A stretch of 38,985 bases of DNA from Oscillospiraceae bacterium. Lineage in GTDB: Bacteria > Bacillota > Clostridia > Oscillospirales > Oscillospiraceae. Location of the stretch: assembly GCA_017428565.1 (NCBI GenBank), contig JAFRQP010000049.1, forward strand, positions 1 through 38,985, read 5' to 3'. The translations under genes and the position numbers were made by a program. Under the pieces are notes generated by a model, which worked only from the letters and a program-made list of their open reading frames with translations, searched no databases and was not told where the DNA came from. Numbering within the stretch: the first letter of the stretch is position 1; each line of letters begins with the position of its first letter. Shown piece by piece: positions 7,570-30,840 of this stretch.

Positions 7570-10500
7570 ATGAGAAGGACTTGGAAAAACTTCCTGTCCT
7601 TGCTGCTGGTCTTCGCGATGGTCCTCTCCCTGGGTGCCACCGGCTTCGCTCTTGAAGAAGAGCCCGAAGTCACCGCGCCTGCGGAAGAGCCCGCCGAGGA
7701 GCCCGGCGGCACCGGTGTCGAGCTCTCGTTTGAGAAGGTCGACAACGACATCATCCCCGAGCGGCTTAATCCTGCCCACGACCCCGTGGAAGAGGAAGAG
7801 CCTCTCTACGCTGACGACGAGTACGTCCGCGTGACCATCATCCTGCAGGGCGCTTCCGCCATTGACGCGGGCTATGCCCCTGCCAGAGCCGGATCCTACC
7901 GTTCCGGCCTTCTGGCTGAGCAGCAGGCGATGGCGGAGAAGATCTCTGCCGAGGCTCTGGACGGAGCCGAGCTGGAGGTCGTCTGGAACCTGACCCTGGC
8001 GATGAACGGCATCTCTGCCTACGTGCAGTACGGCCAGATCGAAGCCATCCGCAACGTCATCGGCGTTAAGGATGTCGTGATCGAGCTCCAGTACTTCCCC
8101 ACGGAAGAGGTCGAGAACATCATCGCCACGGAGATGACCGGCGCTTCCGCCGCCTGGAACCTGGGCTACACCGGCGCGGGCAGCAAGATCGCCATCGTCG
8201 ACACCGGCCTGGACATCGACCACCAGTCCTTTGACGCCGGCGCCTTCGAGTACGCCATCGACGAGCTGAACGAGACCCGCGATAACCCCGTCGACCTCAT
8301 GGACGAGGCCGACGTGGCCGCCGTGTGGGATCAGCTGAACGCAGCTTCCTTCATCGGCAGCTACGACGGCGTGTACCGCAACGCGAAGGTCCCCTTCGCC
8401 GTCAACTATGTGGATCGTGACCTGGACATCATCCACCTCAACGACGCCCAGGGCGAGCACGGCTCTCACGTGGCGGGCATTGCCGCCGCCAACAAGTACA
8501 TCCCCAGCGGCAACGGCTATGACCGAGCCCTGGATACCGTGATGACCCAGGGCGAAGCTCCCGACGCTCAGCTGCTGATCATGAAGGTCTTCGGCAAGGG
8601 CGGCGGCGCTTACGACTCCGACTACATGATCGCCATTGAGGACGCCATGACCCTTGGCTGCGATGCGGTCAACCTGTCTCTGGGCTCCTCCGTCGCCGGC
8701 TACACCACCAACGACGAGTACGTGAATACCCTGAACAAGCTGGTCAATTACGGTCTTGTCTGGGCCAACTCTGCCGGCAACAACTACAGCTGGACCCAGT
8801 TCTCCGTCGGTCCCAACTTCCTGTATGCGGACGACGTGAACTATCAGACCGGCGGTTCTCCCGCAACCTACCACAACACCCTGTCGGTTGCGTCTGTTGA
8901 CAACACCACCGGCGTCCTGTCTGTCCCCATGCAGCTGCTCGATGGTACGAACATCACCTATTCGGAGACCTCCGGATACGGCAACGAGTCCATCAGCACC
9001 ATCCCCGGCACCTACACCTATATCATGCTGACCCGTGCCGGCTATGAGGAGGAAGACTTCGGTGCCCTTGGCCCCGACATCCTGGAGGGTAACGTGGGCG
9101 TTGCCTGGCGCGGCAGCTCTTCCTTCTACGTGAAGGCTAACGGCGCCGCTGCCAACGGAGCGGTTGCCACCATCGTGGCCAACAACCAGCCCGGCACCAT
9201 CAACATGAACCTGTCCGGCTATCTGTACTCCGCGCCTGCCGTCTCCATCATGCAGAACGACGGCTACCTGATGCTCGAGTCCGGCGAGGTGAAGGAGGCC
9301 AACGGCGTGGTCTACGTCGAAGGCACCATCATCATTCCCGAGGGCGTCAGCAACACCACCGCTTCCCCCTTCCAGCAGATGAGCAGCTTCAGCTCCTGGG
9401 GCGGCAACGGTGCCCTGACCATGAAGCCCGAGATCACCGCCCCCGGCGGCAACATCTGGGGCATCTGGGGCGCGAACAGAGGCTCCAGCAGCCCGACGAG
9501 CGCGCATGACGGCTACGAGTATATGTCCGGTACCTCCATGGCCTCTCCTCAGGTGGCCGGTACCACCGCTGTCCTGCGCCAGTACATCCGCGAGAGCGGC
9601 CTGGCGGAGAAGTTCCCCAACCTGACTGAGCGCGCCATCGCCCAGTCCCTGCTGATGTCCACCTCCATGCCTCTGCGCGAGGCGGCCACCGGCAACTACT
9701 GGTCCATCATGAAGCAGGGCTCCGGCCTGGTGGACGTGAACGCCGCCATCACCGCCCGCTCCCTGATCCAGATCGCGGCCCTGCCCGAGACCGCTCCCGA
9801 ATCCGCCTGGACCGCCATTGCCGACGGCAAGGTGAAGGTGGAGACCGGTGAAGTGTACAACGGCTTCTACACCGCGTTCACCGTGACCAACTTCAGCGAT
9901 GAGGACATGTCCCTGTACCTCAACGGTGAGCTCTTCACCCAGTTCATCAACGGCTCCTACCGCACCGAGTACACCGTTCCCGTGTATTCTCGCATCAACT
10001 GGACGGTCAACGGCGAGCCCTACACCCCGGCTGCCCTTGCCCTTGACTTCAACGGCGACGGCGTCTCCAATGGCCTGGACGCCCAGCGTCTGCTGGATTG
10101 GTGCGCTGACGATACCGTTGAGATCTACAACCTGGAGAACGCCGACCTTGACGAGGACGGCAACGTTGACACCGCCGACGCCAAGATCGCCTTCGAGACC
10201 CTGAACGGTGCTTCTGTTGAGCTGGCCGGCGGCGAGACCGCCCTGATCGAAGCCCACGTCTACTATGACATGAGCGACTACGACGCCTTCAACGGCAACT
10301 ATGTCGAGGGCTTCCTCTTCGTCCAGGAGGGCGACACCAACGACGGCGCCCTGGGTGTCCTGCACTCCATCCCCATCTATGGCTTCAACGGCAATTTCTC
10401 CGATGCCACCATGTTCGACCGTGGCTCCCGTCTGGAGTACATGTATGAGTTCGGCGATGGCGAGACGATCGCTCCTTACATGTATTATGCCAGCACCACC

Positions 10501-13500
10501 GCGGGCGGCCTGGGCGAAGCTGCGCTGGAGGAAGAGACCTTCCTGGTGCAGTATGCCGGCGACAGCGACACCTACTACTTCGGCGGCAACCCGCTGCTCG
10601 ACGACGAGACCTACCACCCCGAGCGCAACGCGCTGAACTCGGCTGACATGCTTGCCGGCGTCCGCTACACGCAGATCCGCAATGCCGGCGCTTCCCGCTT
10701 CTTCATCACCGACAAGTACGACCGTACCGTGACCGGCACTGAGATGCAGGGCGGTCGCTCCTACGCGGCCTACTACTATCAGAACCAGTCCACCTGGCAG
10801 CAGACCAGCACCTCCACCCCCTTCAACTACGTGCCCAGACACGTGAACGAAGGCGATGAGCTGACTGCTCACTTCCAGCTGGCCCTGGAGTACTACGTCA
10901 ATTCCGACGGCTCTGTCCGCTGGGATGCTCTGGGCAAGGGCAGCGAGCTGACGATCCCCTTCGTGATCGACAACACCGCTCCTGACATCGTGAGCGTCTA
11001 CCGCAACACCACCGAGGAGCCCGGCGGCGACGACTACGAGCTGCCCATCAACAGCGGTGCTGCTCAGCCCAACGAAGACGATACCCCGATCATTGACGAT
11101 CCCGAACCCACCGATGAGCCCATCGAGGGCGAAGAGGCCGCCACCGATACCCTGGAGATCATCACCCACGATAACCAGTTCATCGCGGCTGTGGCCGTCT
11201 TTACCGACGAGGGCGAGCTTCTGGACGCCAAGGGCGCTGTGGAAGACACCATCCGCGGCAAGGAAGTGTACTACAGCTTCGACCTGAAGGAGATCTTCGG
11301 CGATGAGGAAGTGTACCCCTACCTGCTGGTCCAGGTGTACGACTACGCCATGAACCTCTCCACCTACAAGATCAACTTCACCGACGAGCTGGAGGACGCT
11401 GAGGTCGAGTCCGTCACCGTCAATCCCGAAGAGGCTCTCATCATCGGCACCGGCAGCATCCGTCTGAGCGCCGACGTGCGGCCTTGGGGCATTGACGACG
11501 CGGTCGAATGGACCTCCTCCGACGAGAGCATCGTGACCGTGGACGAGGACGGCGTCGCCACCGGCGTGGCCGAGGGCACTGCCACCATCACCGCCACCTC
11601 TCTGCTGAATCCCGAGATTTCGGGCACCTGCGAGGTCACCGTCAAGTTCGTCGACAAGGATCTGAACGGCATCGTCTGGGACGAGAACGGCGCTGTGTGG
11701 TTCTCCGCCTTCAACCTGAAGACCCTGCCCGAGTATGAGAAGCTGAACGGCTCCAACCTGCGTCTGGCCATGGCTTCCCTCACCTACGACGGGTCTGGCG
11801 CTCTGTACGGCGCCACCTTCGACTCCAATGCTCATACCTCCACGCTCTACAGCGTCAACCCGAACGACTGGAGCGTCACGCCTGTGGGCGCCGAGTCTCC
11901 CATCGGCTTCATGGACATCTGTGCTGCTCCCAACAGCGGCGAGAACATCCTGCTTGGTGTGTACGGCACCTACGTCCTGCTGATCGACAAGACCACCGGT
12001 CAGTATTTGGGCGCCTTCGTCTCCGGCGCTTCCGCCAACCTGGTCGGCATTGCCTACGAGGGCTCCTACGACTACACCGCCTACGGCTACGGTTATGCAG
12101 ACTACTTCTTCCTGCTGGACGAGAAGGGCAACATCTACGAGGGCGCCATGCTGGATCAGAACGTCGTTTCCGGCTGGTTCCGTCCGTCGCGCATGGGCAA
12201 CCTGGGCTACACCTGCGATACCCCGTACTTCCAGTCCCTGTACTATGACGGCGCCAACCTGTTCTGGAGCTGCTTCAATGAGGGCGCCAACAAGGTCGAC
12301 ATCATCATGGTCGACGATCTGTGGGGCGACGGCTACATCTACAATGTGGGCAGCTTTGCCGACGGTGTGTGGCCTGTCGGCGGCCTGCTTGAGCTCGGCG
12401 TCGATACCGGCGAGTTTACGGCCGGCATCACCCAGCCCATCAGCGTTGATCGCTTCTCTTCCGAGGACTTCCTGGCTGTGATCCCCGGCGCCGAGCCCGA
12501 CGCCGAGCTGGATGAGGTTATCGAGGAGCCCATCGACGAGGAGGAGCCCATTGAGGAGCCCGCTCCCGCTGAAGAGCCCATCGAGGAGCCCGTGGGCGGC
12601 GGTCTTGACTTCGCCCGCGTGGAGCTGCCCGGCGACGCGGATCAGGAGAAGGTCGAGGAGCAGGCTGTCGTCATCATCAAGCCCGATGAGCTGATGTACA
12701 ACGGCAAGATCGTCATCGACTTCGATCCCAGCACCGTGCACCTCACCAGCATCGCTATCACCCCGCAGTACACCGCTGTCGTGGATCGCACCGAGGATCT
12801 GGGACACCTTGTCCTGGCCTGGGTCGACCTGGAGGGCATCAGCCCCGAGGATCCCATCCTCACCCTGACCTTCACGCAGGACAGCGTCGGCACCGTTACC
12901 ATCACCACCTATGAGGAGAACGAGCGCGATTCCGACAACGACGAGAACCTGCCTCGCGAGGAGCTGGTCTTCCTGGGCGCCTCCTCCATCCCCGAGGATC
13001 ACGATCACGAGTTCGAACTGGCCCACTGGATCTGGGCAGATGACTTCAGCTCCGCTGTCGCCGTGTTCTCCTGCCCGCAGGACGGCGCTTCCAAGAGCTA
13101 TGAGGCCGAGATCACGGCCTTCGCCGTGAACGCCAGCTGCACCGAACCCGGCTACATCCGCTACACCGCTACCGTCGTGGTGGACGGCGAGACCTACACC
13201 GACGAGAAGGTCGTGGAGATCCCCATCGCCGATCACCAGTACGGCGAGCCCGAGTGGAACTGGAGTGACGATCACATGAGCGCCACCGCCACCTTCACCT
13301 GCTCCATGTGCCACGAAGAGCAGGTCCTGGAGGCGGAGGTGAAGGTCAGCGCCACCAGCTCCACCTGCATGGAGCAGGGCGTTGCCACCTACATCGCTAC
13401 CGTGGAGTTCCAGGGCGAAACCTACACCGACGAGTACGAGGAGCTCCTCCCGCTCGACGAGCATCAGTACGGCGAGCCTGAGTGGAACTGGATCGACCTG

Positions 13501-14763
13501 ATGAACTGCACCGCCACCTTTACCTGCTCCGTCTGCGGCGACAAGCAGGTCCTGGAGGCTGAGATCACCGGTGCGGTCGGCTTCCCCAGCTGCACCGAGA
13601 CCACCTACAACAAGTTCATCGCCACCGTCGAGTTCCAGGGTGAGACCTACACCGATGAGAAGGACGTTGAGGTTCCTCCCACCGGCCACACCTATGCTCC
13701 GCCCACCTGGGAGTGGGATGGCTACACCGCCAAGGCCACCTTCGTCTGCATCGACTGCAGCGATGAGCAGATCCTGGATGCCGAAATCACCAGCGAGCTC
13801 AACGACGACGGCACCATCACCTTCACCGCCACGGTGGAGCTGGACGGCGAGACCTACACCGACACCAAGACCGCTCCCGTGGGCGCTCAGGTTTACGGCA
13901 GCAGCATGGTCATGGGCGAGAACTTCTCGGTCAAGGGCTACCTGTTCCTTTCCGCCGACGTTCTGGCTGACTCCGGCGCCTATGTTACCGTCAACGGCAC
14001 CAAGATCCCGGTGAAGAGCGGCAACAAGGTCAAGGTCAGCGGCAAGTACGCCTACGGCTACAGCTTCGACATCGGTCCCAAGATGTTCAACGACCAGGTC
14101 ACCATCAAGCTGTACAACGGCGCCGATGAGGAGCTCGTGATCCTGGACAAGGAAGGCGAGTACCTGCCCGACGGCTTCATCTTCACCGCGCAGGAGTACA
14201 TTGACAAGGTCATTGCCAACTCCACCGATGAGAAGCTGGTCAACACCATGATCGCGCTGAATGACTTCGGTCACTACGCGCAGGTGTACTTCAAGTACAA
14301 CACTGCGAATATCGCTCCTCTCAAGGGCGACATCAGCGCTGTGACTGCCGAGGATCTGGCCGAGTATGCCGGCGTGATCACCACCATCGACGAGGATGTC
14401 CTGACCTATGTCGGCTCCTCCATGATGCTGGAGAACGAGATGAAGATCCGCCAGTACTTCACGCTGGGTGACGGCGTGGAGCTGAGCAGCCTGACCTTCA
14501 AGATCAACGGCACCAAGGTGAAGCCGGTCCAGAAGGACGGCATGATCTACATCGAGAGCAAGAACGTGCCTGCCAAGAACCTGGATAAGCCTTACACCTT
14601 CGTTATCACCGACAGCACCGGTAAGGTTGTCTACAGCAGTGAGTACAGCGCCTTCAGCTACATCCTCAACTGCATGCAGAAGAGCACGGACGCCAAGCTC
14701 CTCAACATGGTCAAGTCCATGGTGATCTACAACCAGACCGCCAAGCTGTACTTCGGCAACTGA
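7570..14763 (+). CDS. Giant secreted multidomain subtilisin-family serine protease
   Basis: A 2397-aa exported protein; start ATG 7570 has GAAGGAGG at 8 bases. Approximate domains: signal peptide 1-28; acidic Pro/Glu linker; I9-like propeptide 84-178; S8 catalytic domain with Asp211 (AIVDTGLD), His297 (GEHGSHVAG), oxyanion Asn404 (NSAGNN) and Ser656 (SGTSMASPQ); a PA-type insert between Asn404 and Ser656; an Fn3-like domain interrupted by a dockerin (826-880); a bacterial Ig-2 domain (1278-1358); propeller-like repeats (1363-1620); an EEPIEEP linker; a cohesin-like beta-sandwich (~1691-1797); four ~75-aa CxxC repeats (1810-2104); and a duplicated C-terminal module (2110-2397). It resembles C5a peptidase/lactocepin proteases but lacks an LPxTG anchor. 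Codon choice is strongly biased (CCC, GGC, CGC; almost no CGG or GGG), unlike its neighbours, suggesting very high expression. Confidence 0.93.
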   Translation: MRRTWKNFLSLLLVFAMVLSLGATGFALEEEPEVTAPAEEPAEEPGGTGVELSFEKVDNDIIPERLNPAHDPVEEEEPLYADDEYVRVTIILQGASAIDAGYAPARAGSYRSGLLAEQQAMAEKISAEALDGAELEVVWNLTLAMNGISAYVQYGQIEAIRNVIGVKDVVIELQYFPTEEVENIIATEMTGASAAWNLGYTGAGSKIAIVDTGLDIDHQSFDAGAFEYAIDELNETRDNPVDLMDEADVAAVWDQLNAASFIGSYDGVYRNAKVPFAVNYVDRDLDIIHLNDAQGEHGSHVAGIAAANKYIPSGNGYDRALDTVMTQGEAPDAQLLIMKVFGKGGGAYDSDYMIAIEDAMTLGCDAVNLSLGSSVAGYTTNDEYVNTLNKLVNYGLVWANSAGNNYSWTQFSVGPNFLYADDVNYQTGGSPATYHNTLSVASVDNTTGVLSVPMQLLDGTNITYSETSGYGNESISTIPGTYTYIMLTRAGYEEEDFGALGPDILEGNVGVAWRGSSSFYVKANGAAANGAVATIVANNQPGTINMNLSGYLYSAPAVSIMQNDGYLMLESGEVKEANGVVYVEGTIIIPEGVSNTTASPFQQMSSFSSWGGNGALTMKPEITAPGGNIWGIWGANRGSSSPTSAHDGYEYMSGTSMASPQVAGTTAVLRQYIRESGLAEKFPNLTERAIAQSLLMSTSMPLREAATGNYWSIMKQGSGLVDVNAAITARSLIQIAALPETAPESAWTAIADGKVKVETGEVYNGFYTAFTVTNFSDEDMSLYLNGELFTQFINGSYRTEYTVPVYSRINWTVNGEPYTPAALALDFNGDGVSNGLDAQRLLDWCADDTVEIYNLENADLDEDGNVDTADAKIAFETLNGASVELAGGETALIEAHVYYDMSDYDAFNGNYVEGFLFVQEGDTNDGALGVLHSIPIYGFNGNFSDATMFDRGSRLEYMYEFGDGETIAPYMYYASTTAGGLGEAALEEETFLVQYAGDSDTYYFGGNPLLDDETYHPERNALNSADMLAGVRYTQIRNAGASRFFITDKYDRTVTGTEMQGGRSYAAYYYQNQSTWQQTSTSTPFNYVPRHVNEGDELTAHFQLALEYYVNSDGSVRWDALGKGSELTIPFVIDNTAPDIVSVYRNTTEEPGGDDYELPINSGAAQPNEDDTPIIDDPEPTDEPIEGEEAATDTLEIITHDNQFIAAVAVFTDEGELLDAKGAVEDTIRGKEVYYSFDLKEIFGDEEVYPYLLVQVYDYAMNLSTYKINFTDELEDAEVESVTVNPEEALIIGTGSIRLSADVRPWGIDDAVEWTSSDESIVTVDEDGVATGVAEGTATITATSLLNPEISGTCEVTVKFVDKDLNGIVWDENGAVWFSAFNLKTLPEYEKLNGSNLRLAMASLTYDGSGALYGATFDSNAHTSTLYSVNPNDWSVTPVGAESPIGFMDICAAPNSGENILLGVYGTYVLLIDKTTGQYLGAFVSGASANLVGIAYEGSYDYTAYGYGYADYFFLLDEKGNIYEGAMLDQNVVSGWFRPSRMGNLGYTCDTPYFQSLYYDGANLFWSCFNEGANKVDIIMVDDLWGDGYIYNVGSFADGVWPVGGLLELGVDTGEFTAGITQPISVDRFSSEDFLAVIPGAEPDAELDEVIEEPIDEEEPIEEPAPAEEPIEEPVGGGLDFARVELPGDADQEKVEEQAVVIIKPDELMYNGKIVIDFDPSTVHLTSIAITPQYTAVVDRTEDLGHLVLAWVDLEGISPEDPILTLTFTQDSVGTVTITTYEENERDSDNDENLPREELVFLGASSIPEDHDHEFELAHWIWADDFSSAVAVFSCPQDGASKSYEAEITAFAVNASCTEPGYIRYTATVVVDGETYTDEKVVEIPIADHQYGEPEWNWSDDHMSATATFTCSMCHEEQVLEAEVKVSATSSTCMEQGVATYIATVEFQGETYTDEYEELLPLDEHQYGEPEWNWIDLMNCTATFTCSVCGDKQVLEAEITGAVGFPSCTETTYNKFIATVEFQGETYTDEKDVEVPPTGHTYAPPTWEWDGYTAKATFVCIDCSDEQILDAEITSELNDDGTITFTATVELDGETYTDTKTAPVGAQVYGSSMVMGENFSVKGYLFLSADVLADSGAYVTVNGTKIPVKSGNKVKVSGKYAYGYSFDIGPKMFNDQVTIKLYNGADEELVILDKEGEYLPDGFIFTAQEYIDKVIANSTDEKLVNTMIALNDFGHYAQVYFKYNTANIAPLKGDISAVTAEDLAEYAGVITTIDEDVLTYVGSSMMLENEMKIRQYFTLGDGVELSSLTFKINGTKVKPVQKDGMIYIESKNVPAKNLDKPYTFVITDSTGKVVYSSEYSAFSYILNCMQKSTDAKLLNMVKSMVIYNQTAKLYFGN
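10045..10206 (+). other. Dockerin type I-like domain inside the protease
   Basis: Two calcium-loop repeats, DFNGDGVSNGLD..RLLDWC and DLDEDGNVDTADAKIAFETL, show the D-x-[ND]-x-D-G pattern of dockerin/EF-hand pairs. The domain sits inside the Fn3-like domain rather than at a protein end, where dockerins usually lie. Confidence 0.75.
12997..13881 (+). repeat. Four tandem ~75-codon repeats with CxxC motifs
   Basis: Repeat starts at about 12997, 13225, 13453 and 13678 (periods 228, 228, 225 bp). Each unit has H-x-[YF]-x-x-x-x-W-x-W, then A-x-F-x-C-[SIP]-x-C-like, then a Cys/Thr turn and GETYTDE near its end. Units 2 and 3 share HQYGEPEWNW and VEFQGETYTDE. Unit 1 has a degenerate Cys pair and unit 4 lacks the second Cys turn. 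Confidence 0.8.
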
Positions 14764-14781: not shown

Positions 14782-15165
14782 ATGAAGCGCAGGAATCTTT
14801 GGATCCTGCTGGCGGCCCTGGCGGTTGTGGGCATCCTGGTCTACGCCGCGCTGGGCCTCCAGGGCGGGAAAAATGAGGACGAAGCGAAGGCTTCCCAGGA
14901 GACGTCCGAAGCAGAGGACGCCCTGCCCGAGGAAGCCGAAGCGGAAGAAATCGCTTCCGACCCGGAAACCGATCCCGAGGACGCCGAACTTCCGGCGGAC
15001 GAAACTCCCCAGATTCAGACCGGCGAGGGCTCGACGCAGGAGCCCCCCGCAGAGAACCCGGGGGAGACTGAGCCCGGCGAAAACCCCGGCGAAGACCCCG
15101 GTGAAAGCTCCGACGAAGAGACGCAGGTCTCTCTGGAAGAGAACGAGCTTCCGATCTTCCCCTGA
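14782..15165 (+). CDS. Single-pass membrane protein with acidic Pro/Glu tail ending ENELPIFP
   Basis: A 127-aa protein 18 bases after the giant protease, with AAAGGAAA upstream. Residues 1-27 (KRRNLWILLAALAVVGILVY) form an uncleaved-looking signal anchor with a positive N-terminus. The rest is a low-complexity acidic tail rich in E, D, P and G, presumably outside the cell, that ends LEENELPIFP. Both ends match the 80-aa protein at 15712-15954 (R-K-S-LWILLALLAV start, LEEDELPIMAA end). It shares the protease transcript before the terminator at 15203. No known domain is seen. It might anchor, present or be cut by the protease, but that is inference. Confidence 0.75.
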   Translation: MKRRNLWILLAALAVVGILVYAALGLQGGKNEDEAKASQETSEAEDALPEEAEAEEIASDPETDPEDAELPADETPQIQTGEGSTQEPPAENPGETEPGENPGEDPGESSDEETQVSLEENELPIFP

Positions 15166-15202
15166 TCTGCCAGGCCCTGGCAAGAACGATCCAAGCAACG
15201 GG

Positions 15203-15233
15203 AACCTCCCGGCCGAAAGGCCGGGAGGTTTTC
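15203..15233 (+). terminator. Terminator of the giant-protease operon
   Basis: 12-bp stem AACCTCCCGGCC (15203-15214) with 15219-15230, GAAA loop, then TT and a pyrimidine-rich run. Confidence 0.8.
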
Positions 15234-15458
15234 CCTTCCTGGAGCAGGGGAGTGAAGAACGGCGGGAGGCTGCTGCACCCGAAAACGGCGAAGGCAAGTC
15301 CGCCGAGGAGCTATGCCTGTGGCGCATTGCTCGGGAGAGCAGAGGGGAGCGCCGGGGCGCCTCGCAGGCTGCCGCATACTCTTCGGTTCGAAAACCGTTG
15401 TCATAAAAAAGTTAACATAAAAAATACAAGAAATGAACAAATTGTCATCTTCTTGTAC
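15234..15458 (+). other. Gene-free GC-rich then AT-rich spacer with possible RNA structure
   Basis: No convincing gene. In 15302-15386 CCGAGGAG..TATGC can pair with GCATACTCTTCGG, enclosing a TGCTC-GGGA-GAGCA hairpin and a GAGCGCC/GGCGCCTC hairpin, which together look like a folded RNA. CGGTT-CGAA-AACCG (15384-15397) is a further small hairpin. I match none of this to a known riboswitch. After 15400 the sequence becomes AT-rich leading to the next promoter. Confidence 0.3.
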
Positions 15459-15487
15459 TTGACAAGGAAATCGAACTGGTGTATAGT
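15459..15487 (+). promoter_or_regulatory. Sigma-A promoter for the 33-aa peptide gene
   Basis: TTGACA (15459-15464), a 17-base spacer and TATAGT (15482-15487). It implies a leader of about 110 bases, containing a GCCGCG..CGCGGC stem near 15509-15538. Confidence 0.75.
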
Positions 15488-15606
15488 TCAACATGTAGCG
15501 AAAGCCGCGTGGGTTATGTCTACTCTGATATGCGCGGCATAGCTGTTTTGCCCGGGCCTTTCCTTCCGGCAAAGCGGTATCTGGCAGAGAAGTGGAGGAA
15601 AACAAA

Positions 15607-15708
15607 ATGAAGAAGCAGTATGAGATTCCCGAGCTGAAGGTTGCTGTTCTTGCGAAGTCCGACGTCATTGTTACCAGCCTTGGGGAAAACGAGACGCCCA
15701 TTTTCTAA
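15607..15708 (+). CDS. 33-aa peptide ending ENETPIF (putative precursor or signalling peptide)
   Basis: A short gene missed by length cut-offs. ATG 15607 has GTGGAGGA eight bases upstream (near-perfect) and a consensus promoter at 15459. The product begins MKKQYEIPELKVAVLAKSD, continues with VIVTS and ends GENETPIF. The K-x-Y-x-x-P-x-[LV]-x-V...D-V-I-x-T-S pattern recalls small unannotated peptides that I believe are common in gut clostridia. The end matches the tails of the two flanking membrane proteins (ENELPIFP, EDELPIM). There is no classic signal peptide and no cysteine. The next gene starts 3 bases after its stop. Candidates: a RiPP-like precursor, a signalling peptide, or a leader/tag substrate. 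Confidence 0.65.
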   Translation: MKKQYEIPELKVAVLAKSDVIVTSLGENETPIF

Positions 15709-15711
15709 TTT

Positions 15712-15954
15712 GTGAATCGCAAGAGCCTTTGGATCCTTTTGGCTCTGCTTGCAGTTGCGGCGGTCATTCTTTTGACCGCCCTGCTGCATAGCGGGGGACC
15801 CGAAACGAGTGATCCGGAAGCGCCGGATCTTGCAGAGACAAGCTTGGACGAGACCGATGAGGTCGATGACCAGGAGACGGAGTACCGCACCAGGATTGAT
15901 CCCGCGACGGGATTGGAACTGGAAGAGGATGAGCTCCCCATCATGGCGGCGTAA
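15712..15954 (+). CDS. Small single-pass membrane protein ending EDELPIMAA
   Basis: An 80-aa protein starting at GTG 15712, three bases after the stop of the 33-aa peptide and without a ribosome site of its own, so translation is probably coupled. Residues 1-24 (NRKSLWILLALLAVAAVILL) form a signal anchor clearly homologous to that of the 127-aa protein at 14782. The remaining ~50 residues are acidic (SLDETDEVDDQETEYRTRID...) and end LEEDELPIMAA. It is a shorter paralogue of the same two-ended design. No enzymatic motif is seen. It probably sits in the membrane with its tail outside; its function is unknown. Confidence 0.7.
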   Translation: MNRKSLWILLALLAVAAVILLTALLHSGGPETSDPEAPDLAETSLDETDEVDDQETEYRTRIDPATGLELEEDELPIMAA

Positions 15955-28713: not shown

Positions 28714-28758
28714 CCGCCCGGACACAAGCAAAAACGCTTGCGTCCGGGCGGTTTTTTT
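28714..28758 (+). terminator. Terminator after the murA-walJ-like unit
   Basis: Long stem CCGCCCGGAC-a-CAAGC (28714-28729) with GCTTG-c-GTCCGGGCGG (28736-28751), then T7. Confidence 0.9.
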
Positions 28759-28766
28759 GTTATAGT
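28738..28766 (+). promoter_or_regulatory. Promoter overlapping the preceding terminator
   Basis: TTGCGT (28738-28743) lies in the 3' arm of the hairpin; a 17-base spacer covers the T-run, then TATAGT (28761-28766). Confidence 0.55.
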
Positions 28767-28821
28767 TATTATGGATATATATGAACAGAAATGCGATACG
28801 GATCACAAAGGAGGGACTTCC

Positions 28822-30840
28822 ATGAAGCGCGTGAGAAAGCTGCTGGCCCTGGCGCTGGCCCTGGTGATGCTGCTGGGCCTGACGCCTGCCGCCGCCCTGG
28901 CCGAGGACGGACATACCCACGACTGGCGGGAGCGGGGCCGCACGGAGCCGACCTGCACGAAAGAGGGCTCCGTGACCTACGTCTGCTCCTGCGGAGAGAC
29001 GAAGACCGAGATCCTCCCCGCCCTGGGCCATGACTGGGACGAGGGGAAGATCGTGGACCACGAGAGCAGCCCCGGCGGGAAGGCGCTGCGCTTCCGCTGT
29101 AAGCGCTGCGACGCCATCATCTTCCGGGATCTGCCCGCGGATGAGAGCGACGACTACGGCTGGGAGCCCCCCGAGGAGCCGGAGGAACCGGAGATCCCGG
29201 ACGGCGCCGTATCCCCTGCCAGCGGAGAACCGGCGGGAGAAGCGAAGATCGGGTTCGAAGTAGACCACATTTGGCACTGGAATGAAGATCACGAGGTCGG
29301 CGGGAAGATCAATATATACGGGTTTCTCCACAATCTCGGCGATGTTTCTTTGTTCGGCGCAGTGCTGGACTTGTATCGCTGGGACAAGAGCGCGGGAGCC
29401 TTCGTTTTTTATGAGACAGTGACGGTAGATAACAAAGGAGAAGGCTACAGTCTTTGGGCGAATCACTACAATTACGCTCGGATAAACTATGACTATACCA
29501 TCGACGAATGGGATCTGGAGAACGCGGAGGACGGACTGGCAAAGCTGCAGCTTGTTGCACGGGCCGAGACAGAGGATGGCCAGAAGGTGGAGTCGGAGCC
29601 GATGATTTACAGCTTCCCCATCTATGATCCCTCTCTGCTGCTGGAGGCGGAAGATTGCTCTGAGATCCAGGCCCCGGTGGACGGTTATGTGAAAGTCAAG
29701 ATCACGGTGACGAGCACCGGGACAGAGACCTACGCCTACGATTCCCTGAGTTCCTGTGGATGGGACAGCGAAGGGTATTATTATTTTGGTAATGATGAGC
29801 TTCACGACTATGATCTGAGCCATCTCCAGCCGGGGAAGCCTGAGAAAGCGGAGTTTTGGATTGAAGTGACCGCGGATGACGTGGCGGCAGGAGAGGTCAG
29901 GCGGGATCTGTGCCTGAGATTTGAACGGTGGAGCAGGGAGGATGGAAGGACGGTTTTTCCGGACACTCCGATGGAGGAGCAGGGCCTGGGATTTGTATGG
30001 TGGGGCGCTGTCGCTTATACAAACTGGGTCGAGATCGTCATTCCTCTTCCGGAGAAGTATGAGGCCGCGCCTGCCCCCGCGCCGCTGACAAGCTGCCAGC
30101 CCGCCCTCACCGGCCTGGGCGACGGCAAGGCGGAATGGACCCTGACGCGCTGCGGCGAGCATGCTGCCCTGGCAAGGGAAGCGGAGGGCAAGACGTCCGA
30201 GGAGGCGCTTCTCCTGTGGGCGGAGGCGCTGGACGCGGAATACGAGGAATGGCTCGCCGAGGCGGACGAGGCCCAGCGCCCCTTGATCGAGGCGGAGCGG
30301 GCGGCATTTCAGGAGCATTTTGCGGCCTGCGCGGTCGCCTGGGAGCTCCTCGGCGGCAAAGAAACCGCCGCCCGGATGGGCTTGGAGCTGGTGATGCACA
30401 AGGTCTCCCTGCTCTGCTTTGCCCGGGAGGCCGGGAGCGAGGACTGGGCCGCCATCTTCGCCGGAGCGGAGGAGCTGGACGCCGCCGATCCGGAGCAGGC
30501 GACGTGCTGGCGGCAGAGCCATGAGTTCGGCCTGAGACTGGAGGTCCGGGAAAGCCTCTGCCCGGAGCACGCGCAGATCGACACCTCGGCGGAGGACGAG
30601 GAGGGCTGGCGGGAGCGGAAGACGCTCTGGCTGGCTGCCCTGAACGCCGAGACGGACGCCCGCTGGCTCTCTGCGGACGAGGAGAGCCGGGAGCTGATCG
30701 CGGCGGAGCGGCAGAGCTTCGGCCGCTGGCTGGCCGCGTGGGAGACGCTGCTGACGGCACGCTATCCCGGGGATCCCGCCCTGGTGCAGGAGCTGCTGGC
30801 CCGGGCCGTCCGCGACCGCGCCCTGGCCTTCTGCCGGTAA
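28822..30840 (+). CDS. Secreted mosaic protein with CxC/CxxC N-terminal region and duplicated LprI-like helical modules
   Basis: A 672-aa exported protein; start ATG 28822 has AAAGGAGGG upstream. Signal peptide 1-30 (RVRKLLALALALVMLLGLTP...). Residues 31-105 carry a Cys module (HTHDWRERGRTEPTCTKEGS, CSCGET, then GHDW and CKRC), similar in style to the CxxC repeats of the giant protease. A Pro/Glu linker follows. Residues ~140-415 form beta-rich segments with clearly lower-GC codons than either flank. The C-terminus holds two related helical modules (~444-533 and ~580-672), both C-x-EHA...LW..AL.AE...WL..A-E..R.LI.AER.(A/S)F, recalling DUF1311/LprI lysozyme-inhibitor helices. Function is unknown; surface protection or ligand binding is possible. 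Confidence 0.8.
   Translation: MKRVRKLLALALALVMLLGLTPAAALAEDGHTHDWRERGRTEPTCTKEGSVTYVCSCGETKTEILPALGHDWDEGKIVDHESSPGGKALRFRCKRCDAIIFRDLPADESDDYGWEPPEEPEEPEIPDGAVSPASGEPAGEAKIGFEVDHIWHWNEDHEVGGKINIYGFLHNLGDVSLFGAVLDLYRWDKSAGAFVFYETVTVDNKGEGYSLWANHYNYARINYDYTIDEWDLENAEDGLAKLQLVARAETEDGQKVESEPMIYSFPIYDPSLLLEAEDCSEIQAPVDGYVKVKITVTSTGTETYAYDSLSSCGWDSEGYYYFGNDELHDYDLSHLQPGKPEKAEFWIEVTADDVAAGEVRRDLCLRFERWSREDGRTVFPDTPMEEQGLGFVWWGAVAYTNWVEIVIPLPEKYEAAPAPAPLTSCQPALTGLGDGKAEWTLTRCGEHAALAREAEGKTSEEALLLWAEALDAEYEEWLAEADEAQRPLIEAERAAFQEHFAACAVAWELLGGKETAARMGLELVMHKVSLLCFAREAGSEDWAAIFAGAEELDAADPEQATCWRQSHEFGLRLEVRESLCPEHAQIDTSAEDEEGWRERKTLWLAALNAETDARWLSADEESRELIAAERQSFGRWLAAWETLLTARYPGDPALVQELLARAVRDRALAFCR

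Follow-up and report, generated by a model that had tools for sequence, protein, structure and literature searches.

Non-covalent attachment of proteins to the bacterial surface is known from S-layer-homology (SLH) proteins and from anchoring scaffoldins that use cohesin-dockerin pairs, and the sorting tails of sortase (LPxTG) and PEP-CTERM systems are conserved C-terminal motifs on surface proteins. Among RiPPs, lasso-type precursors such as that of paeninodin depend on an RRE (PqqD) protein. Many proteins of 30-50 aa in gut and rumen clostridia have, to our knowledge, no assigned role. YxxP is described as a recognition sequence of RREs and PF05402 as including many RREs (PMC12710340), and HPr-kinase, PqqD and nucleotidyltransferase genes are described as occurring with lasso clusters of rumen bacteria (PMC7533575). 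In this study, we analyzed a 38,985-nucleotide stretch of an Oscillospiraceae genome (the window), in which a giant secreted subtilase gene is followed by genes for two small N-anchored proteins (A and B) and a 33-aa peptide (Table 1), and compared it with other genomes, which are incomplete MAGs. G000 denotes the window's own genome, other G numbers the compared genomes, C a contig and L a locus; gene calls made by script used a simple codon score, with the window as training set.

As in lasso-type RRE systems, a YxxP leader and a discrete PF05402 protein were found, and HprK-like, PqqD and NTP_transf_5 genes occur here too; unlike in those systems, there is an S24/S26-like gene, the core has 9 residues, and the tail is common to anchored surface proteins. 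The lasso B2 protease (PF13471) was over cut-off in none of the nine, incomplete genomes that carry the tail, with weak partial matches (21 bits) within long ORFs in three of them, and inspection by eye of the genes listed for L196 and L198-L206 showed no Asn-synthetase-like cyclase. A likeness to radical-SAM/SPASM RiPPs (TIGR04463 and related, all under cut-off) is that the same leader type stands beside radical-SAM and PqqD genes in G033, G066, G070 and G076, and in G006 by similarity only. However, the window peptide has no recognised radical-SAM neighbour (no radical-SAM/SPASM maturase was seen by eye among the window ORFs) and its core lacks Cys, and where family members lie next to radical-SAM genes, they do not resemble copies of the ligand proposed below. 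No core-tailoring gene was recognised beside the window peptide; an HprK-like kinase is encoded in an operon on another contig.

With regard to surface attachment, SLH and cohesin-dockerin systems have parallels here in cohesin proteins that end in the same C-terminal domain as the subtilase (C-dom), in SLH proteins with tails in other genera, and in a subtilase in which SLH replaces C-dom. In contrast to those systems, the short C-terminal motif would here be the ligand and C-dom the module, and the tail itself is neither cohesin nor dockerin. Like LPxTG and PEP-CTERM signals, the tail is a conserved, LP-containing motif at the C-terminus of surface proteins, but it has no hydrophobic segment or basic end past the motif, the stop codon lying 2-3 residues past it in the 12 N-anchored tails, and it also occurs within lipoprotein linkers. 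No description of this gene layout was found among the titles and opening lines of abstracts of the open-licence PMC literature.

The subtilase locus and its counterparts

A Pfam scan divided the window subtilase into S8 and PA domains, a dockerin-like segment (19.8 bits, under the cut-off of 22.9), Big_2, cysteine repeats and the C-terminal C-dom. The next gene, that of protein A, starts 18 nt past its end and has counterparts in G059, G070 and G006:C56. The near-identical signal-anchor start that the sequence-only reading had pointed out in the two membrane proteins was indeed present, both opening with basic residues and then LWILLA.LAV. The 33-aa peptide consists of a YxxP leader (YEIPEL), D-V-I-V-T-S and the core LGENETPIF, and 3 nt past its stop begins protein B, whose C-terminal block DPATGLELEEDELPI is followed by MAA. 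Elsewhere in the window (28738-30840), a secreted protein with a signal-peptide-like start continues with HDW..CTKEG..CSCG, a sequence similar to that of the cysteine repeats in the giant subtilase.

Table 1. Positions of the main features in the window
Feature	Position	Strand	Remarks
Giant secreted S8 subtilase	7570..14763	+	2397 aa from ATG 7570
C-dom, uncharacterised C-terminal domain, proposed tail binder	13873..14760	+	Common to many secreted proteins
Protein A, 127 aa, N-anchored	14782..15165	+	Signal anchor, acidic Pro-rich linker, tail LEENELPIFP
Tail motif ENELPI of protein A	15139..15156	+	
Promoter TTGACA-17-TATAGT of the peptide/protein B unit	15459..15487	+	
Imperfect dyad ATGTAGC...TATGTCTAC directly past the -10	15493..15523	+	Four-species alignment
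33-aa peptide	15607..15708	+	ATG 15607 preceded by GTGGAGG; end GENETPIF
Tail motif ENETPI of the 33-aa peptide	15685..15702	+	
Protein B, 80 aa, N-anchored	15712..15954	+	GTG start; end LEEDELPIMAA
Tail motif EDELPI of protein B	15925..15942	+	

The peptide and protein B appear to form a unit with a promoter of its own. In an alignment of this region, TTGACA was kept in G059, G070 and G006 and the -10 in part, and the dyad, possibly an operator-like element, was kept in four species with a single left-arm change in G006. No Rfam element reached the gathering threshold in the window.

In G054:C61, G055, G059, G070 and G104, the giant subtilase gene is again followed by an anchored-protein and/or peptide gene and then by 2-hydroxyacid dehydrogenase and nrdR genes. 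The subtilase and a tail protein are kept together in G022 and G079, and G006 has the peptide, protein B and the dehydrogenase at one contig end, with the subtilase and an A-type protein on another contig. A different arrangement was found in G021, where the subtilase orthologue (G021:C15, L164 2111-6001; 54% identity to the window subtilase over 1104 aa) contains a dockerin that exceeds the cut-off (28.6 bits) and an SLH region at the C-terminus, where the window protein has C-dom. Two tail proteins come next, with the ends EDELPIIP and EDELPIATP and, in one of them, a GGSTQPGG repeat in the linker, and the genome has further C-dom matches elsewhere. This exchange suits C-dom as a surface module, as if the two domains could be interchangeable; on the other hand, tails beside a subtilase without C-dom argue against strictly local pairing of the two.

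Frequency and conservation of the tail motif

The three small genes share their tail, as had been claimed from the sequence (ends ENELPIFP, ENETPIF and EDELPIMAA), and our counts confirmed that the shared pattern is real and far beyond chance. The pattern GARRAYGARNYNCCNATH (E-[ND]-E-x-P-I) had 5 matches in the 2.69-Mb genome G000 and its reversed form had 0; three matches were the tails of the window's small genes and two were lipoprotein linkers, one of which precedes a cyclophilin-type domain. A narrower pattern, GANRAYGARYTNCCNATH, which misses the T of the window peptide, gave 35 matches in 102 genomes of the genus versus 5 for the control. Almost two thirds of them (23/35) fell in nine genomes (G000, G006, G021, G054, G055, G059, G070, G079 and G104), which are related to each other, so that counts of co-occurrence among them are not independent. 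All 23 were read: 12 were tails of N-anchored proteins, 5 were small peptides and 6 were lipoprotein linkers, the sixth in a frame that appears broken downstream (G070:C66), and 14 of the 23 lay no more than 3 residues from the stop. In the other 93 genomes, none of the 12 matches belonged to these three classes: one lay in a secreted protein, past the signal peptide, ten were other frames, and the remaining one was a 13-codon frame ending 2 residues past the motif, with no peptide or anchored gene nearby. A spread over random C-termini, which the sequence-only reading had named as counting against its claim, was thus not seen within the genus.

Judged from codons and alignments, the tail is under protein-level constraint. 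Among 17 copies of ELPI, codon positions 1 and 2 were invariant and third positions varied, and in nine B-type proteins (36 pairs, 9 species) the block DPxxGxELEEDELPI was 81% identical versus 16% for the linker. The B-type protein of G054 has DENELPLDEP at the position of the block. Three simpler accounts of the tail were ruled out: recent DNA copying, because third codon positions differ; a C-terminal degron, because the residues past ELPI are not conserved (FP, F, MAA, ATD, IVD, DEP); and a strictly C-terminal signal, because the same motif also occurs inside lipoprotein linkers. Since the tail is conserved and common to otherwise different small proteins, the earlier suggestion that a common factor recognises it fits the data.

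A looser stop-anchored pattern gave mostly noise and was not used. It also returned GAGGTGCCGATGTCGCCGTAG and near copies of it in many genomes of the genus, mostly once each, which is probably a conserved gene read in another frame.

C-dom, the peptide family and their neighbours

C-dom, the last ~300 aa of the subtilase, is common to other secreted proteins. In the search for C-dom genes, 31 of the 102 genomes of the genus matched at E <= 1e-10, 27 of them past the adjoining repeat and in C-dom itself, and all nine tail genomes had C-dom genes, although their relatedness means that these counts are not independent. We found no relative of C-dom in Pfam, NCBIfam or the PDB (the best E in a profile search of solved structures was an unconvincing 0.61), and the subtilase and four other C-dom proteins had no Pfam match to SLH or an LPXTG anchor. 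A leader-type peptide started within 200 nt after 13 of 51 C-dom genes versus 1 of 329 other gene ends (Fisher 1.3e-11), as counted on loci fetched by C-dom; some C-dom genes are close relatives and the p-value therefore overstates independence. The other 38 C-dom genes had no leader-type peptide within 200 nt downstream. Among the cores of the 13 peptides, 9 contained [ED][LT]P versus 0.98 expected from shuffled cores.

The C-dom secreted proteins directly followed by family peptides are the giant subtilase, cohesin proteins and Cna_B proteins. Pfam recognised no protease in several of the proteins that precede peptides with the same motif, namely cohesin proteins, Cna_B proteins and a Pfam-less protein of 1213 aa. 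Cohesin (PF00963) was over cut-off in eight of the nine tail genomes (21 matches), and within the 20 loci given, 7 of 19 cohesin ORFs also contained C-dom; five of these had a complete end, and after four of the five came a leader-type peptide (..SNDTPIFPAE.., ..DENELPED twice and ..SGQCEDEGELD). One such case lies in the window's own genome (L295 5986-7871, G000:C93): the peptide with SNDTPIFPAE begins 18 nt past the gene of a secreted cohesin protein with C-dom at its end, and the gene before the cohesin gene encodes a 694-aa protein that ends in a dockerin-like segment. In six loci of other species in the genus (L137, L139, L141, L142, L144 and L154), peptide-less C-dom genes were followed by proteins with Pro/Gln/Gly-rich linkers, N-anchored where the N-terminus was seen; acidic tails found after such genes were SNEAEPLAF, SSEGEAFMIG and DNEGEVIPIQ.

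The peptide family is marked by an [YF]xxP leader, D-[IV]-[IL]-x-x-S and an acidic core, and its members often stand beside HprK-like, PqqD, S24/S26-like and ABC-exporter genes. Within the genus, the peptides do have recurrent neighbours, the lack of which had been named as a further point against the original claim. A profile search of 400 genomes drawn evenly from the family found peptides in 47 of the genomes and 25 of 106 genera, with a bias to ELPI-type cores, because the profile contained ELPI members. Among the 30 loci given (one from G000), C-dom was directly upstream in 11 and an HprK-like or PqqD gene lay in the 1.5-kb flanks in 10, with either in 18. We also examined 73 peptides picked by a pattern that itself requires [DEN] at -6 and [SN] at -1, and found D at -6 in 66, S at -1 in 72 and T or V at -3 in 60. 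YxxP was present in 36 of their leaders and [YF]xxP in 57 (YEIP in the window peptide), [EDYW][LT]P in 28 and Cys in 18, and the cores held 324 acidic versus 37 basic residues. Such residues at -3 and -1 of a putative cleavage site suit a signal-peptidase-like enzyme.

The peptide is probably exported by PqqD-type machinery. In G000, an operon with HprK-like, PqqD, S24/S26-like and ABC genes lies on contig C16 (L196), not adjacent to the window peptide, and contains one of the two PF05402 matches over cut-off in this genome. Both the S24/S26 and the HprK-like matches were weak and under cut-off, with about 16-20 bits for the latter, and a profile of the HprK-like protein had no match among solved structures. 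An HprK-like gene of the C16 type was found in eight of the nine (related) tail genomes, and exporter-type genes of this kind stand directly behind a C-dom gene and its peptide in G004 (L208). The earlier interpretation holds up in part. An exporter, which it had offered as a possible common factor, is encoded in G000, on another contig, but suits the leader of the peptide and not the anchored tails, whose topology would place them outside the cell. A second type of locus (L197, G000:C104:47001-62000; L201; L209) also has HprK-like, PqqD and NTP_transf_5 genes. It encodes an N-anchored protein with another conserved tail, EGDLIITIPEDEESDGF, which reads EGDLEIIIPDDQESDGF in G055, where a PqqD frame overlaps it; in G000, giant proteins of this locus are each followed by a ~90-aa protein of dockerin-like appearance, and one of these two small proteins was scanned and had no Pfam match.

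In several other genera the tail differs, and in some of the loci the peptide and the neighbouring anchored protein co-vary. A lipoprotein-like protein with the end HGDILLPEVP lies behind a peptide with ..TSGDIELPEQPING in G197 (GDIELPEQP in the peptide versus GDILLPEVP in the anchored protein), and SLH proteins in G155 and G245 end GDIMLPEVP and GDIFLPEVP, respectively. The peptide of G168 ends ENMTDKG and is followed by an SLH protein ending DNMTEKG, with partly different codons. Further pairs were the peptide ..DDDELPPQG and, behind it, a protein that contains DELPIM internally and ends GDELPIIPIG in G362, and NEGEPIDIPTP with GEDEGEIIEL in G004. Scores of matched versus re-paired peptides and tails were 232 vs 174 in 10 loci (19 of 20000) and 362 vs 289 in 15 loci (4 of 20000), for a hand-compiled, non-exhaustive set of loci in which both genes were seen, with one tail per locus and with G054:C61 excluded because its peptide start is unclear. 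The match was not above background in G361, G245 and G055. When five pairs were shuffled, G000, G168 and G197 stood out (at most 1 of 5000), whereas G004 (928 of 5000) and G362 (574 of 5000) did not.

A candidate surface ligand and its alternatives

Our favored explanation, which we hold tentatively and at somewhat less than an even chance, is that the tail is a surface ligand on anchored proteins, the peptide an exported soluble copy of it, and C-dom its likely binder. Anchored proteins would present E-x-E-L-P-I outside the cell, with the motif inside a disordered acidic linker or terminating it, and would be held by an N-terminal membrane anchor in the window's genus and by a lipoprotein or SLH anchor elsewhere. 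The location outside the cell is suggested by the basic residues before the signal anchor, in keeping with the positive-inside rule behind signal-anchor topology, and by the lipobox and SLH versions. A PqqD protein whose gene lies in another part of the genome would bind the YxxP leader of the 33-aa peptide, cleavage after D-V-I-x-x-S would fall to an S24/S26-like peptidase, and an ABC transporter would export the short acidic core with the same epitope. Because the motif works at the C-terminus, in linkers and in the peptide, and co-varies between genes of a locus, it is most readily taken as a ligand for one extracellular partner, and C-dom is proposed as this partner because it is the most enriched neighbour. 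This domain belongs to secreted proteins, such as the subtilase and cohesin-bearing scaffold-like proteins, that tail and peptide genes often follow; these proteins would be docked on the cell by anchored tails, and competition from the free peptide would tune their attachment or release. A fuller version, which we consider somewhat less likely, is a new system of surface attachment and release: a short C-terminal motif on membrane-, lipid- or SLH-anchored proteins would keep C-dom proteins (proteases, adhesin-like giants and cohesin scaffolds) on the cell, an exported, RRE-guided peptide bearing that motif would compete for C-dom and so control display, and receptor and ligands would co-evolve, with the motif shifting by genus.

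Some of the same observations could be read in other ways. The promoter with its operator-like dyad kept in four species, the export-type operon with PqqD and ABC genes, and the presence of several peptide paralogues in some genomes would all suit a pheromone-like signal that is exported and read by a membrane receptor, with the anchored and lipoprotein copies as decoys or reservoirs and C-dom proteins merely as co-regulated cargo. We consider this unlikely, as none of the genes listed beside the peptides stood out by eye as a receptor gene and the enriched neighbour is C-dom. The adjacent protease, which the sequence-only reading had offered as a possible common factor, might instead hold the tails in its active site as tethered product-like inhibitors or substrates. 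A subtilase is followed by a tail protein and/or peptide in G000, G022, G054, G055, G059, G070, G079 and G104, and the pairing in G021, which holds even with SLH in place of C-dom, speaks for this reading. However, a protease domain is not a constant neighbour, and none was seen in other C-dom proteins followed by peptides (the cohesin, Cna_B and 1213-aa proteins), which makes the catalytic domain less likely as the common factor; we regard this role of the protease as quite unlikely.

The leader, the PqqD genes and the radical-SAM maturases of some loci could also point to a RiPP bacteriocin with tethered immunity, in which the anchored tail would mimic a modified antimicrobial peptide and protect the producer. 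Yet no radical-SAM gene was seen by eye beside the window peptide or in the C16 stretch, the core is short and free of Cys, and lasso B2 stayed under cut-off in the tail genomes, all of which makes a bacteriocin improbable. It seems still less probable that the tails have no common function and are acidic Pro-rich linkers that look alike because of their composition or because they derive from a single duplicated tail. Proteins A and B, which have an anchor in common, may be paralogues, and the nine tail genomes are related; but the contrast in conservation between block and linker, the excess over shuffled cores after C-dom genes, the re-pairing result and the different anchors on which such tails ride all argue against this view.

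If the surface-ligand explanation is correct, it would explain how giant enzymes and scaffolds without a known anchor are retained on the cell in rumen Oscillospiraceae, and it would provide a short genetically encoded ligand with natural variants. It also links a large family of small proteins to export-type machinery, to a domain of giant and scaffold proteins, and to anchored copies of the same epitope. Taken together, our results suggest an undescribed way of organizing proteins on the bacterial surface.
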